A DNA stretch of 51,564 bases, taken from contig JAJRXF010000063.1 of NCBI GenBank assembly GCA_024276425.1, forward strand, positions 1 through 51,564, given 5' to 3'. The stretch is from Actinomycetes bacterium (GTDB lineage: Bacteria; Actinomycetota; Acidimicrobiia; Acidimicrobiales; SZUA-35). Below the pieces are notes generated by a model that was not told the DNA's origin, did not search any database, and saw only the letters and a program-made list of their open reading frames with translations. Positions within the stretch are counted from its first letter, which is position 1. The number at the start of each line of letters is the position of its first letter. Positions 18,302-24,886 of this stretch are shown here, one piece after another. The position numbers were made by a program, and so were the translations under genes.

Positions 18302-19648
18302 ATGCCTCATAGGTTCCCCCGATTCGGGACGGACGGCATTCGTGGTGTAGCCAACAAGGAACTGACTCCCGACGTTGCCCAGGCCGTAGGCCGGGCGGCG
18401 GCGGAGTTGTTGGGTGGTAATCGCGTCGTTATTGGACGAGACACGAGAAGATCAGGCCCGATGTTGGAGGCAGGTCTGGTAGCTGGCTACACCGCGGCAG
18501 GGGTTGATGTCGAACTACTCGGTGTTGTTCCGACGCCCACCGTTTCTTGGGTGGCGAGTAACTCGGAAATTCCCGGGGCCATGATCTCGGCCTCTCACAA
18601 TCCCTTTGCCGACAATGGCATCAAACTCTTTGGCGCCGGTGGGCTCAAACTCAGCGATGAGGTTGAAGCTTCGATTCAGGCTCGATTTCATGAAATTCTT
18701 CAGGTTCCCCACCAGTCGGGGCCAACCGGAGATGGTATTGGCGTTGTTGTTCCTTCGTCAGGGTCCGTCGGTTGGGTTCGGTCCGTTGTTGAGTCGGTAG
18801 CCCCCGGCGCTCTACGGAAAATGCACGTGGTCTTGGACTGCGCCAATGGTTCTGCGACCAGTCTTGGCCCACATGTCTTTGATTCCCTGGGTGCAGATCT
18901 GACCATCATCGGGGCTGATCCCAATGGTGTGAATATCAACGCTGGTTGTGGATCGACCAGGCCCGAATATCTGCAGCAAGCTGTCTTAGATTCGGGGGCT
19001 GACCTTGGCTTGGCTTTTGATGGTGATGCGGACCGATTGGTGGCTGTGGCTTCGGACGGAAAGATCGTCGACGGAGATCACATCCTGGCAATTCTGGCCG
19101 AGGACTGGAGCGCGAATGGGCGGCTACGCCACAACACCATTGTGGTGACCGTCATGTCGAACCTCGGGTTTCATCTCGCGATGAAGCGGCGAGGCATTGC
19201 GGTTGTTCAAACTGGCGTAGGAGACCGCTACGTGCTCGAAGCCCTGAACGAGGGATCCTATTCACTAGGAGGGGAACAATCGGGCCACGTGATTTGTCGA
19301 GACCTTGCCTCGACTGGGGATGGAATCTTGGCCGGAGTTCAGTTGGCAGACGCCATTGTTCGATCCGGGCTGAGTTCGGCCGAGTGTGCTGCCGATGCCA
19401 TGACCTCGGTACCTCAACTTCTCCACAACATCAGGCTTTCTCGCCGAGACCCAAGCTTGGTGGGAAAACTGAGTCAGTCGATCGCTGCGGCTGAGGCTTC
19501 CATGGGTTCGGATGGCAGAGTACTGATCCGAGCGAGTGGCACGGAGCCCTTGCTTCGGGTCATGGTCGAGCACGTTGATGATGTACAGGCGAGGAGTATC
19601 TGTGCTCAACTTGTCGCCGACGCCGAAAAACTCATCGCCGCAGGGTAA
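18302..19648 (+). CDS. glmM: Phosphoglucosamine mutase
   Basis: Converts glucosamine-6-phosphate to glucosamine-1-phosphate for UDP-GlcNAc and peptidoglycan. The 448-residue protein has the GTDGIRGVAN start, the phospho-serine loop ISASHNPF (Ser98), the metal loop DGDADR and the C-terminal phosphate-binding RASGTEPLLRVMVE. Start at ATG 18302 behind an AGGAGG-like site; the open frame further upstream overlaps rpsI. The next gene is a GlmS-like synthase, the preceding pathway step. Confidence 0.97.
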   Translation: MPHRFPRFGTDGIRGVANKELTPDVAQAVGRAAAELLGGNRVVIGRDTRRSGPMLEAGLVAGYTAAGVDVELLGVVPTPTVSWVASNSEIPGAMISASHNPFADNGIKLFGAGGLKLSDEVEASIQARFHEILQVPHQSGPTGDGIGVVVPSSGSVGWVRSVVESVAPGALRKMHVVLDCANGSATSLGPHVFDSLGADLTIIGADPNGVNINAGCGSTRPEYLQQAVLDSGADLGLAFDGDADRLVAVASDGKIVDGDHILAILAEDWSANGRLRHNTIVVTVMSNLGFHLAMKRRGIAVVQTGVGDRYVLEALNEGSYSLGGEQSGHVICRDLASTGDGILAGVQLADAIVRSGLSSAECAADAMTSVPQLLHNIRLSRRDPSLVGKLSQSIAAAEASMGSDGRVLIRASGTEPLLRVMVEHVDDVQARSICAQLVADAEKLIAAG

Positions 19649-19694: not shown

Positions 19695-22600
19695 ATGTGC
19701 GGAATTATTGCCATTGTGCGCCGCCGAACCGGCCGCACCACCCCGAAAAGCTCGGATTTGCTGGCCGAACTCGACGCTGCCATTGGTCATCTACCTTCGG
19801 TTGGGTCCGCCCTTATTGCCGATGACATCAACCAGGCAGCCGATTCGTTGACCTCGGTGGATCTCCGGCTTCGAGGTGAGGCCGGTCTTCAAGCGATGCT
19901 TGGCGATTCCAGCCTGATTCACGAAATCCTGGTTCGAGTGGCCCGGGTAGCCGAGCTGGTCGAGGCCATTGAATCTGAGTTGGAGCTTCGTGGTGAGCAG
20001 ATGGTTGACCTTGAGGACATCAATGCTGCGCTGGTTCGGGTTAAGGATGGTGCTTGGGCCATTGAACGCGATCGAATTCGCACCGCCAAATCCGTGGCCG
20101 ACTTGGCCGGGCCGGATGCTTCGGCGGCAGCGGTCGCAGCTTGTTTTTCTATCCAACAAGCCCTAAGTGCTCTGGATCGACTAGAAGTCCGCGGTCGCGA
20201 CAGTGCTGGTCTTCATGTTTTGGTCCGAAATCACGGTTTGGATTTAGCTTCGGCTGCGGTGCTCAAGCTTCTGGCCGAGCGGAACCGGGGCGGACTCTTC
20301 ACCGATGGCGCTGTCCGGACGCCTCAGGGCTTTCTCAGTTTTGTTTACAAGGCAGCGGCGGAGATTGGCGAGCTTGGTGACAATACCGCGGCGATGCGCG
20401 CGGCCATCGTTGATGACCAGTTGCTCCACCTTGCTTTGCAGAACGATCGGGCCGAGGCCACTATTCTCGGCCATACCCGCTGGGCATCGGTGGGGATCAT
20501 TAGCGAGCCCAACGCTCACCCGGTCAATAGTGACGAACTGGAACGGTCGAACTATTTGGATGACGTCTCCAACGCCGGCTATGTCACCGCAACCCTCAAT
20601 GGTGACGTTGACAACTATCCAGATTTGATCGCTGCGGACAGTCTCCGGATCGCCAGCGAGATAACCACCGATGCCAAAGTCATTCCTACTCTGGTTGCCC
20701 GCGGTCTTGACGATGGGTATGACATTGATGAGTCGGTACGTCGGGCCGTTTCCCAGTTTGAGGGCTCCGTTGCTATCGGGATTAGTTCGACGGCCGAACC
20801 TCAAGACATTCACGTTTGCCTTCGTGGAAGTGGCCAGGGGGTGTTTGTTGGTCGGGCCGAGGATGCTTTCGTTGTTGCCTCCGAGCCATATGGCGTCGTC
20901 GAGGACTCCACCCTGTACTTGCGCATGGACGGGGAAACACCGGCCGATCCCGATAACCCGATCGCCAGCCAGGGGCAAATCATCCGACTCCGGGGTGCTC
21001 AGGCTGGGGAGCCAGGCGGAGTTACCCGCTATGCCTATGACGGTACCCGGCTTCCGGTGGAGAGTTCGGAATGGAAGAAGCCGGAGGTGACGACGCGAGA
21101 CATCGATCGTGGCGAGGCTCCGCACTTCTTACTCAAGGAGATCTCCGAATCCCCAGTTTCCTTCGCCAAGACCTTGCGCGGTCGGCTCGTCCCAAGCGAT
21201 GACGGTTTGACCGTGCGCCTACCGCCTGAGACTCTCCCCATTTCGGTTCAGGACTATCTCTCCTCTGGGCGAGTCCGCAAGGTGCTCGTCATTGGCCAGG
21301 GCACCGCAGCGGTAGCAGGTCAAGCCGTTTCGTCCGCACTCGACTCGGCCCTCGACGGTTCGGGAATATCTGTCGGGTACACAACGGCCACCGAGTTGTC
21401 CGGGTTCAATCTTCGAGACGAAATGGACGACACACTCATTGTGGCCATCTCCCAGTCGGGAACGACCACCGACACGAATCGGACTGTTGACCTGGTCCGT
21501 GGGCGCGGTGCCACGGTCTTGGCCATCGTGAATCGGAGGGGCAGCGACCTGGTCGACAAAGCCGATGGGGTCCTTTACACGAGCGATGGCCGGGACGTTG
21601 AGATGAGTGTCGCCTCCACCAAGGCTTTCTACGCTCAGATAGCTGCCGGATTCTTGCTGGCTGAGGGTGTGGCCGACCTGGTTCCCGGAACCGTTACGAA
21701 CTCTGGTGATCGCCAGGTTCTGTTACAGGCGCTTCGAGAACTGCCAGACGCAATGCGGCTCACTTTGGCTAAGCGAGACGAGATCGCCGCGGTGGCGGCT
21801 CGTCATTTCCCCAGCCGTCGTTATTGGGCCATGGTGGGCAGCGGCGCCAATCTTATTGCGGCACGCGAGTTGCGAATCAAGTTGTCCGAGCTTTGTTACA
21901 AGTCCATTGCCTGCGACGTTATTGAAGACAAGAAGCACATAGACCTTTCTTCCGAACCGCTGATTCTGGTCTGTGCCGCTGGCCTGGTTGGCTCCAACGC
22001 CGACGATGTGGCCAAGGAAGTAGCGATCTTTCGGGCTCACAAGGCCGCGCCAATCGTGATCGCAACCGAAGGAGAAAACCGCTTCACTGACGCCCTCGAC
22101 GTGATTGCCGTGCCCGATGTTGACCGGCGTCTGGCCTTCGTGCTTTCCACCGTTGTGGGTCATCTCTTTGGCTATGAGGCCGCCTTAGCAATTGATGCCT
22201 CGGCTCTTCCTCTTCGTCAAGCGCGGGCGGTGATCGAGAGTTTCCTTGGCGCAACAGGAGACTGGTTCGTTGATTTCGGAGAACAGCTTCGCCCCCTGGC
22301 TAGCCAGTACTTTGATGGGCTTCGAATCGGCTACTACAACGGTCATCTTGAGGCTGGGACCGCGGCGAGGCTCGGCTCTCTATTCCGCTTCGCAACCGGT
22401 TCGACCCGGCTGGAGTCCTTTCAGGTGGAGTACGGCAAGGTTGGTACGCCGGGCGTGGTAGCCGAAGATCTCGCCAGCGTCCTCACCTCGGCTATTGAGG
22501 AATTGACTCGCCCAGTAGATGCCATCAAGCATCAGGCCAAGACGGTGACTGTGGGCATCTCTCGGGCCGATGAGAGCCTGCTGCAGTCCGACCTCATTCG

Positions 22601-23138
22601 GTCGGTACTGGAGTCGGGTTGTCCGCGTGATCGAATGAGTTATCGGACCCTTCGAGCCATTGCTGCCCTGGCTCCCTCGGTTGCGAGTGTGATCGGGTTC
22701 ACTCGTTATGCCATCGAGGGTTCCCTGGATGGAGCGGCCAGGATCAGCGTTGTTGATCGTGGTGGCATGGCCACCGGCTTGGTCTCGAGGACCGATCGAG
22801 ATCCCACGCTGCGAGGCAACAAGCATCGGGTCGCCGTGGAACGAGACGTCCTGGTTACGGTTGGGTCGGATGGTCGGACGGTACTAATGGTTCCGGAGGT
22901 GAAGGATGGACAAACCACCGGAGTGACCCTTTGCCACCTGACGTTAAATGAGAATCTTGGGGCCAACACCGCCCGATCTGTACTGCAGGGATACCGTAAT
23001 CGTTACCGTCAATTGGTCGATGTCGTTACCGAGACCGAGCCCTCTTTCCGGGAGGACTTGCTGGCAGACGTTCCGACGGTCGAGCTTCTTACCGCACCAA
23101 TCTCCGAGGTCGCCGAACGCTGGACTCGTGGTGGTTGA
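19695..23138 (+). CDS. glmS: Giant GlmS-like glutamine-fructose-6-phosphate aminotransferase
   Basis: GlmS makes glucosamine-6-phosphate from fructose-6-phosphate and glutamine. This protein has 1147 residues against about 610 normally. Residues 2-4 (CGI) supply the N-terminal nucleophile cysteine; the motif that should follow within 30 residues (RLEVRGRDSAG) appears only at 162-172, after a mostly helical insert. HTRWAS (260-265) and the oxyanion-hole NGDVDNY (302-308) are kept. SIS domain 1 spans about 525-660 (SQSGTTTDT, ASTKAF) and SIS 2 about 705-835 (HIDLSSEP with the ring-opening His749). The usual GlmS end is matched by VDAIKHQAKTVTV (941-953). About 195 extra residues of unknown function follow. 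It sits 46 bases after glmM, which supports a GlmS role, but activity of so altered a protein is inferred. Confidence 0.88.
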   Translation: MCGIIAIVRRRTGRTTPKSSDLLAELDAAIGHLPSVGSALIADDINQAADSLTSVDLRLRGEAGLQAMLGDSSLIHEILVRVARVAELVEAIESELELRGEQMVDLEDINAALVRVKDGAWAIERDRIRTAKSVADLAGPDASAAAVAACFSIQQALSALDRLEVRGRDSAGLHVLVRNHGLDLASAAVLKLLAERNRGGLFTDGAVRTPQGFLSFVYKAAAEIGELGDNTAAMRAAIVDDQLLHLALQNDRAEATILGHTRWASVGIISEPNAHPVNSDELERSNYLDDVSNAGYVTATLNGDVDNYPDLIAADSLRIASEITTDAKVIPTLVARGLDDGYDIDESVRRAVSQFEGSVAIGISSTAEPQDIHVCLRGSGQGVFVGRAEDAFVVASEPYGVVEDSTLYLRMDGETPADPDNPIASQGQIIRLRGAQAGEPGGVTRYAYDGTRLPVESSEWKKPEVTTRDIDRGEAPHFLLKEISESPVSFAKTLRGRLVPSDDGLTVRLPPETLPISVQDYLSSGRVRKVLVIGQGTAAVAGQAVSSALDSALDGSGISVGYTTATELSGFNLRDEMDDTLIVAISQSGTTTDTNRTVDLVRGRGATVLAIVNRRGSDLVDKADGVLYTSDGRDVEMSVASTKAFYAQIAAGFLLAEGVADLVPGTVTNSGDRQVLLQALRELPDAMRLTLAKRDEIAAVAARHFPSRRYWAMVGSGANLIAARELRIKLSELCYKSIACDVIEDKKHIDLSSEPLILVCAAGLVGSNADDVAKEVAIFRAHKAAPIVIATEGENRFTDALDVIAVPDVDRRLAFVLSTVVGHLFGYEAALAIDASALPLRQARAVIESFLGATGDWFVDFGEQLRPLASQYFDGLRIGYYNGHLEAGTAARLGSLFRFATGSTRLESFQVEYGKVGTPGVVAEDLASVLTSAIEELTRPVDAIKHQAKTVTVGISRADESLLQSDLIRSVLESGCPRDRMSYRTLRAIAALAPSVASVIGFTRYAIEGSLDGAARISVVDRGGMATGLVSRTDRDPTLRGNKHRVAVERDVLVTVGSDGRTVLMVPEVKDGQTTGVTLCHLTLNENLGANTARSVLQGYRNRYRQLVDVVTETEPSFREDLLADVPTVELLTAPISEVAERWTRGG

Positions 23139-23757
23139 GGCTGATCTACCGGATGAGGGTGGCCCAGCGCTGGTAACTCCGCTGGACCGATCAATTGACC
23201 AGCTTTGGGAAACCATGTCTGATCGCAGCGGCCTCATGGGTGAGCTTGCGGCCGATGCCGTTCTGGTCCGGGCCGATGCCGGTGAACTGGCTTTCTGTTT
23301 CCCGCGCCTGGCCGAACTCATGGTTCGCAATGAGTTGGGGCCCGAGCCCGCCTTTGGAATCGCTGATCGATTGGTGGCTGAAGGTTGGCAGTCATGGGAA
23401 CAAGCCCACCGAGAAGCCATCGAAGAGTTCTTCGACACGTGGTGGCTTTTGACGCGGGTACTGGACGATGGACCGTTGCCTGCTCACGAGGTACTAGGGG
23501 TGCTGGTGCACCTTGGGTTGCCTCTGGTTCGTTGGCTTGGCCCATGGCTTGAAGATCTGGATGGCCCACCGGCCAGGCACTTTGCTGACATGGTCATGAG
23601 CCAGCTGCATTCCCCCGCGTGGGAAGCCGCTCCAGATGAGCGAGGTCAAGTCCTGGCATGGGCTGCCTCGGAGCCATGTGTGTTTGGGATCGCCCTTGTT
23701 GGTGGTATCCATCTGAGCGAGGGGCAGCTGTCGGAGGTCTTGGACCGCTTGGTCTAG
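23128..23757 (+). CDS. Hypothetical protein between glmS and alr
   Basis: A 209-residue acidic protein of unknown family, probably started at GTG 23128 or 23131 within the last codons of glmS and thus translationally coupled. It contains amphipathic helices (AIEEFFDTWWLLTRVLDDG) and a hydrophobic, Trp-rich stretch (VLVHLGLPLVRWLGPWLEDL) that may be buried rather than membrane-spanning. No catalytic motif is recognised. Its place between two peptidoglycan-precursor genes suggests a linked role, but that is only context. Confidence 0.75.
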   Translation: MVVEADLPDEGGPALVTPLDRSIDQLWETMSDRSGLMGELAADAVLVRADAGELAFCFPRLAELMVRNELGPEPAFGIADRLVAEGWQSWEQAHREAIEEFFDTWWLLTRVLDDGPLPAHEVLGVLVHLGLPLVRWLGPWLEDLDGPPARHFADMVMSQLHSPAWEAAPDERGQVLAWAASEPCVFGIALVGGIHLSEGQLSEVLDRLV

Positions 23758-23770
23758 GAGAGGGTGGGTC

Positions 23771-24886
23771 ATGGGGCGTTCCTGGTTGGAGATTGACGAG
23801 GCAGCGATCACCCGAAATACCGCGACAATGTTGCGTGCGGCTAGCGGGGCAAGGCTTTGTGCGGTCGTGAAGGCTGATGGGTACGGGCACGGTTCGGTTC
23901 CAGCCGCCCGGGCTGCGGCCGCCGGAGGTGCGACCGCCCTCGCGGTAGCCAGGGTGGAGGAGGGTCTCCAGCTTCGTCACGAACAAGTTGATCTGCCAAT
24001 CTGGGTCTTGTCGGAGCCCGAGCCAGGGGAGATGGCTGCGGCTGTCGCCTTCAACCTCGAGCCAACGGTTTACACCTCGGAGGGGATCAGCGCCGTCGCC
24101 AGAGCCGCCCGGTCGCAGGCCGCCCGGCTGCCGGTTCATTTGAGCATTGATACGGGCATGCATCGGGTGGGGGTACGGGCCACCGATGCGGTCAGCCTCG
24201 CGACCCAGATCGCCAATGAGGAGTATCTGGAGCTTCGATCTGTCTGGACTCATTGTGCATCCTCGGACGAGCCAGACAATCCCCTTACCAACCAGCAGAT
24301 GGATCGACTGGATCTCGTGCTTGGGGATCTGGCACAAGCCAACCTTGGCCCGCCGCTCGTTCACGCTGCGAACTCGGGAGGAACGCTGGCCTTCGGTCGC
24401 ACCCACCGCGACATTGTTCGCTGCGGTATCTCGCTGTATGGGCTCAGCCCCAGCCCAGCCCTGGCCGACCGGGTCCGGTTGGAGCCCGCAATGCGCTGGC
24501 TTGTTAAGGTCGGTTTTGTAAAAGGCCTACGGGCCGGGGATCGGGTGAGCTATGGGCAGAGCGGCGTTGTGGGCCAGGACACTCGGGTTGCCACCCTTCC
24601 CGTTGGCTACGCGGATGGCTATAGGCGTTCCACTTGGCAAGGACCGGGCATGGTACTGATCGGCGGCAAGCCCCGCCCGATTGTCGGTGTTGTAACCATG
24701 GATCAGATGGTGGTCGACGTTGGCGATGACCCGGTCGGGCCTGGGGACGAAGTGGTCCTGCTTGGTCGCCAGGGTGACGCGGTGATAACCGCTGAGGATC
24801 TAGCTCAGTGGCAGGGAACCATCAACTATGAGGTGGTGTGCAGCCCGACTAGTCGAGTTCCAAAAACGTACCCGACTGGCGCTTGA
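23771..24886 (+). CDS. alr: Alanine racemase
   Basis: A PLP enzyme interconverting L- and D-alanine for peptidoglycan. The 371-residue protein has the PLP lysine motif AVVKADGYGHG (Lys34), substrate-side HLSIDTGMHRVGV, and the catalytic tyrosine in RVSYG (Tyr261). GGAGAGGG at 23757-23764 precedes ATG 23771. Length and order of motifs are normal for the family. Confidence 0.96.
   Translation: MGRSWLEIDEAAITRNTATMLRAASGARLCAVVKADGYGHGSVPAARAAAAGGATALAVARVEEGLQLRHEQVDLPIWVLSEPEPGEMAAAVAFNLEPTVYTSEGISAVARAARSQAARLPVHLSIDTGMHRVGVRATDAVSLATQIANEEYLELRSVWTHCASSDEPDNPLTNQQMDRLDLVLGDLAQANLGPPLVHAANSGGTLAFGRTHRDIVRCGISLYGLSPSPALADRVRLEPAMRWLVKVGFVKGLRAGDRVSYGQSGVVGQDTRVATLPVGYADGYRRSTWQGPGMVLIGGKPRPIVGVVTMDQMVVDVGDDPVGPGDEVVLLGRQGDAVITAEDLAQWQGTINYEVVCSPTSRVPKTYPTGA

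Follow-up and report, generated by a model that had tools for sequence, protein, structure and literature searches.

Canonical GlmS and the layout of the giant protein

GlmS starts amino-sugar and cell-wall synthesis, committing carbon to peptidoglycan, and is a studied drug target whose mechanism is framed around a free N-terminal cysteine and a mobile, free C-terminal loop. Enzymes of the GlmS/GFAT type normally run to about 600–690 aa and end in this catalytic C-terminus. In human GFAT-1 the C-loop (residues 670–681) covers the sugar site, touches the glutaminase domain and is disordered without glutamate; it is mobile, bridging both active sites, and tags placed at the termini impair activity (PMC7000685).

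The glmS gene in the window (the whole stretch of 51,564 nucleotides that was analysed) departs from this norm, encoding 1147 aa, almost twice the usual length, in an intact ORF without internal stop, beginning MCGIIAIV from an ATG-TGC start, with the C-loop internal (Table 1). Like canonical bacterial GlmS (TIGR01135; 1jxa, 2j6h, 1moq), this giant has a glutaminase followed by two SIS domains, the catalytic residues that were checked, a glmM neighbourhood and the core fold, but it carries about 540 extra residues, mostly in three blocks, which alignment with E. coli GlmS places at residues 14–152, 837–940 and 955–1147. The first block inserts ∼139 residues without E. coli counterpart between the cysteine strand and RGRDSAG, close to the ∼130 proposed in a preliminary description of the locus; the third extends 193 aa beyond the normal GlmS end (G954), where a tail of 195 residues had been proposed. 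The enlarged amidotransferase–SIS region of that description resolves into ∼47 additional residues ahead of HTRWA and the second block, which had not been singled out before and in which ∼104 residues separate the last SIS helix from the catalytic C-loop. It is because insert 2 and the C-terminal extension flank the C-loop that this loop is internal rather than terminal. A further difference from canonical GlmS is a two-residue insertion in TSDGRDVEMSVASTKAF. Neither the glmS ribozyme nor any other Rfam element was found in the window. An ORF at 22948–23757 (+) lies between the giant glmS and alr, its longest form overlapping the glmS end.

Table 1. Features of the giant glmS locus, in window positions.
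Feature	Position	Strand	Basis
glmM, adjoining pathway gene	18302..19648	+	
Giant GlmS ORF	19695..23138	+	Met-Cys2 start; catalytic residues aligned; AF2 pLDDT 90.7
Cys2, glutaminase nucleophile (E. coli Cys1)	19698..19700	+	alignment
Insert 1, residues 14–152, helical, between Cys strand and R-loop helix	19734..20150	+	
Remaining class-II glutaminase domain, residues 153–433 (RGRDSAG, HTRWAS, NAHP, NG, D326)	20151..20993	+	
Two-SIS isomerase domain, residues 469–835 (E725/K729/E732/H748)	21099..22199	+	Foldseek 1moq/7dnr TMt 0.83–0.88
Insert 2, residues 837–940, helical, SIS2 to catalytic C-loop	22203..22514	+	
Internalised catalytic C-loop DAIKHQAKTVTVG, residues 942–954, Schiff-base lysine K949	22518..22556	+	
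C-terminal extension domain, residues 955–1147, alpha/beta	22557..23135	+	folds by itself (predicted)
alr, conserved neighbour downstream	23771..24886	+	

Catalytic residues and predicted structure

We aligned 106 giants (the window protein included) with E. coli GlmS and 12 canonical GlmS of the same class, and the GlmS landmarks fall in order from C2 through QAKTVTV with K949, as the preliminary description had held. The glutaminase residues map to C2, R166 (in RGRDSAG), R262 and W263 (in HTRWAS, 260–265), H275 (in NAHP), N302, G303 and D326, and the isomerase residues to S586, Q587, S588 and T591 (in SQSGTT, 586–591), S641 (in VASTKAF), E725, K729, E732, H748 and K949. The nucleophile cysteine is present in 100 of the 106 giants, with five gaps and one serine, and the glutaminase equivalents of E. 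coli R26, R73, W74, H86, N98, G99 and D123 are invariant save for one X at R26/R166. On the isomerase side, the equivalents of E. coli K485, E488, H504 and K603 (K729, E732, H748 and K949) are invariant, as are Q587, S588, T591 and S641 (E. coli Q348, S349, T352 and S401), while S586 (E. coli S347) is serine or threonine. The Schiff-base lysine thus lies in HQAKTVTVG at K949 in every giant; a supposed loss of the catalytic lysine, with arginine in PLRQAR near residue 845, was discarded once the alignment had placed it there. The sole tested catalytic residue that differs from canonical GlmS is the phosphate-site Ser303 of E. coli, which is alanine (Ala538) in all giants. The giants also share a signature, YTSDGRDVEMSVASTKAFYxQ (residues 628–648), with two extra residues relative to TNAGTEIGVASTKAFTTQ of E. 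coli, adjoining the sugar-binding serine (E. coli S401).

Insert 1 has a mean column identity of 28%, with D118 and W121 invariant, and the extension has G1041, K1043, D1059, P1067 and E1113 invariant. The same architecture is found in 85 aligned relatives at 35–80% identity, and AlphaFold2, given the alignment of these 85 sequences, returned a model of pLDDT 90.7 and pTM 0.82; together these observations show that the arrangement is not due to chance.

Curated family models capture the protein incompletely. Pfam recognises one SIS domain above cut-off and a sub-threshold GATase_6, and the NCBIfam glmS models cover residues 249–833 at 191–216 bits against cut-offs of 381–418. With 191 bits where TIGR01135 demands 418, the giant is not a TIGR01135 member as curated but belongs to a sister lineage. 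A PDB sequence search gave E. coli GlmS and human GFAT-1 as closest. The comparison of a predicted structure with E. coli GlmS that had been proposed earlier bears out the core fold (TMt 0.75 to 2j6h by Foldseek, and 0.83–0.88 for the isomerase domain), and the top match of the whole chain is human GFAT-1 (E 1e-27, TMt 0.71). Human GFAT-1 has the same catalytic set (Lys558/Glu561/His577/Lys676) as well as the fold, but neither the N-terminal helical insert nor the C-terminal domain.

In the AlphaFold2 model, insert 1 is helical and insert 2, also helical, closes with a long helix running into the C-loop. The single stretch with pLDDT below 50 is residues 950–956, right after K949, which would be compatible with a mobile loop. 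Predicted alone, the extension forms an alpha/beta domain with its own fold (pLDDT 92, pTM 0.86). In the PDB, Foldseek gave it no better than weak matches (E 2e-3 to 2e-2), led by the M. smegmatis large glutamate dehydrogenase (7jsr, E 2.4e-3) and continuing with many GAF, PAS and chemoreceptor sensor domains. With these the extension shares an antiparallel sheet with helices, and the Foldseek probability of the best matches is mostly 0.8–1.0, but E-values are not significant, TM-scores are low and no sequence family matches. The extension has no Pfam match, and none of the three additions has a significant sequence match among solved structures.

Distribution and origin of the giant lineage

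The preliminary description raised the possibility that the giant is the only GlmS of its organism, and the search it proposed for a second, normal-length glmS came back empty: a glmS-profile search of the organism's own genome (3.95 Mb, 96.1% complete) found no canonical glmS, the other matches being a SIS-only NagB-II-like protein, PurF and two short SIS matches. Among 296 genomes of the class, 117 have a giant, 159 have a canonical GlmS above cut-off, and none has both, the two lists having been compared by eye; the zero overlap follows from the glmS-profile matches of the giant genomes, none of which is better than ∼1e-75. Inspection by eye also indicates that the trait sorts by family code within this sample. 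No canonical GlmS above cut-off was found in any of 34 further giant-bearing genomes, mostly of other phyla, and five giant genomes of 95–98% completeness (G039, G071, G153, G202 and G217) each match the glmS profile just once at E≤1e-10. Synteny in the class agrees, in that the order rplM-rpsI-glmM-X-alr-tsaE has the giant at X, where sister families hold the canonical glmS. By mutual exclusion and by operon slot, the giant takes the genomic role of glmS and very probably is the organism's only GlmS; such a replacement of the normal enzyme is seen in roughly half of the class and, in a scattered way, in other phyla.

The SIS-only protein of the same genome (L003, 338 aa, G000:C73:29178–30170) adjoins nagA. 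It resembles the giant in its SIS domains, but, as in NagB-II and GlmD glucosamine-6-phosphate deaminases, the glutaminase domain is absent, and it is probably a deaminase of the NagB-II type, forming with nagA a GlcNAc salvage or catabolic pair. The own genome (G000) also yielded no GlmU-like gene (best glmU match 2.7e-9), and G265, G039, G075 and G169 are among the giant carriers of the order without a GlmU match at 1e-20; in such carriers other enzymes may perform the final steps to UDP-GlcNAc. A coupling between the giant and GlmU, raised by the missing gene, was set aside because GlmU matches turned up in the majority of the other giant genomes, so that the giant is not linked to GlmU.

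In a core tree, 57 giants and 21 canonical proteins form separate groups with 100% SH-aLRT support, on either side of a branch of ∼7.8 substitutions per site. This split and the very long branch rule out a simple fusion onto a canonical actinobacterial GlmS, and the giants form a deep, separate lineage. The glmM tree interleaves giant and canonical carriers (L158–L171 vs L039–L091), with six switches by parsimony, at least two of which are forced by well-supported branches; such mixing and switching suggests repeated exchange of glmS in place at one locus.

When 396 genomes of the phylum were searched with a profile of the extension, 31 gave a match, each a single one and always within an ORF of giant size or a shorter one, the shorter ones probably being truncated by contig ends; it was found nowhere outside giant GlmS in this sample. 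The suggestion that the architecture be mapped across actinobacterial orders proved too narrow, as the family extends to many phyla. Relatives outside Actinomycetota are labelled Thermodesulfobacteriota (Desulfobacterota), Myxococcota, Planctomycetota, Eremiobacterota/Vulcanimicrobiota, Armatimonadota, Riflebacteria and UBP9, while binning errors may account for the single matches with Burkholderiales and Acidobacteriota labels. We found no description of this architecture in the part of the open literature that was covered.

One branch differs at the N-terminus. About 18 relatives (L094, L095, L098–L102, L104, L106–L111, L113, L117 and L118), from Desulfobacterota, deltaproteobacteria labelled Myxococcota and one Brocadiia, have a conserved stretch of 40–50 residues ahead of the catalytic cysteine (SVILFPxxPxxLxCGIAGIL). 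The codon preceding the cysteine is never ATG, GTG or TTG in these relatives, so the putative propeptide must be cleaved to free it. Class-II relatives such as glutamate synthase free their cysteine by propeptide cleavage, whereas in canonical GlmS removal of the methionine suffices.

Proposed function and alternatives

We consider it highly probable, from residue alignment and genomic context, that the giant is the organism's sole glutamine:fructose-6-phosphate amidotransferase, a deeply diverged GlmS with extra domains. After removal of the methionine, glutamine would be hydrolysed at Cys2 and the ammonia channelled to the SIS site, where K949 would hold fructose-6-phosphate in a Schiff base and the sugar would be converted to glucosamine-6-phosphate for the adjoining GlmM. 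The K949 loop is tethered at both ends, by a long helix before it and a folded domain after it, and the additions would most likely represent a built-in allosteric and/or oligomerisation module, governing C-loop closure and the coupling of both active sites, probably upon ligand binding. That the tail alters structure or regulation, as the preliminary description proposed, is reasonable, the more so with the C-loop internal and a separately folding domain predicted next to it; the regulatory half of that proposal is conjectural. A regulatory role for the additions, taken alone, has about an even chance, and for the extension it is drawn from where the domain sits, from its conservation and from a weak resemblance to known folds.

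Alternatively, one could envision a GlmS-like amidotransferase for a different amino sugar, with glucosamine-6-phosphate supplied by, for example, a NagB-II-like SIS protein working in reverse. The deep divergence (∼7.8 substitutions per site), the replacement of Ser303 by alanine and the NagB-II-like gene next to nagA would be in keeping with this, but a one-for-one replacement of canonical GlmS in the same glmM operon would not, nor would the five near-complete giant genomes without any other GlmS or SIS match at E≤1e-10, and we regard it as very improbable. The more specific idea, offered earlier as an example of regulation, is that the giant senses UDP-GlcNAc, in this case through the isomerase site as in eukaryotic GFAT. 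Human GFAT-1 is its best PDB fold match, and R343, listed with T447, T458, G461 and H463 among the UDP-GlcNAc contacts of that enzyme (PMC7000685), aligns with R497, a match that is uninformative because the arginine equivalent to R343 is present in E. coli as well. The other four contacts are replaced by V612, A623, V626 and Y628, and G461E by itself abolishes UDP-GlcNAc binding in human GFAT-1 (PMC7000685). The eukaryotic-type site has thus not been kept, the giant lacking these contacts, and UDP-GlcNAc sensing of this kind is not supported and would be very improbable.

A stronger competitor accepts an active GlmS and takes the inserts and extension as purely structural, stabilising a particular oligomer or wrapping the active site, with no effector. 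The poor conservation of insert 1, the absence of a match to a known sensor family and the weakness of the GAF/PAS-like similarity all fit, and we give this explanation somewhat less than an even chance; against it, K1043, D1059 and E1113 of the extension are invariant across phyla, as would be expected of polar residues in a functional site. The boldest form of the regulatory reading is held just as tentatively, as possible rather than probable: the giants would be an ancient second GlmS lineage, their normally terminal C-loop turned into an internal hinge with a helical insert on one side and a ligand-binding domain of undescribed type on the other, and a metabolite would thereby directly gate entry into amino-sugar synthesis, with one branch also matured by propeptide cleavage.

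Regardless of how the additions act, the giant is a real, conserved and widespread variant of a known enzyme and very likely serves as the sole functional GlmS, any regulation by its extra domains being hypothetical. In every giant genome tested the family score stays under the cut-off used for annotation, so pathway predictions may report glmS as lacking in such organisms. For an enzyme understood through its two free termini, the giants, a lineage both natural and widespread, add a domain of 193 residues past the C-loop and, within a single branch, some 40-odd residues ahead of the cysteine; they make it possible to test how much freedom the C-loop requires and whether it is gated by the added domain.
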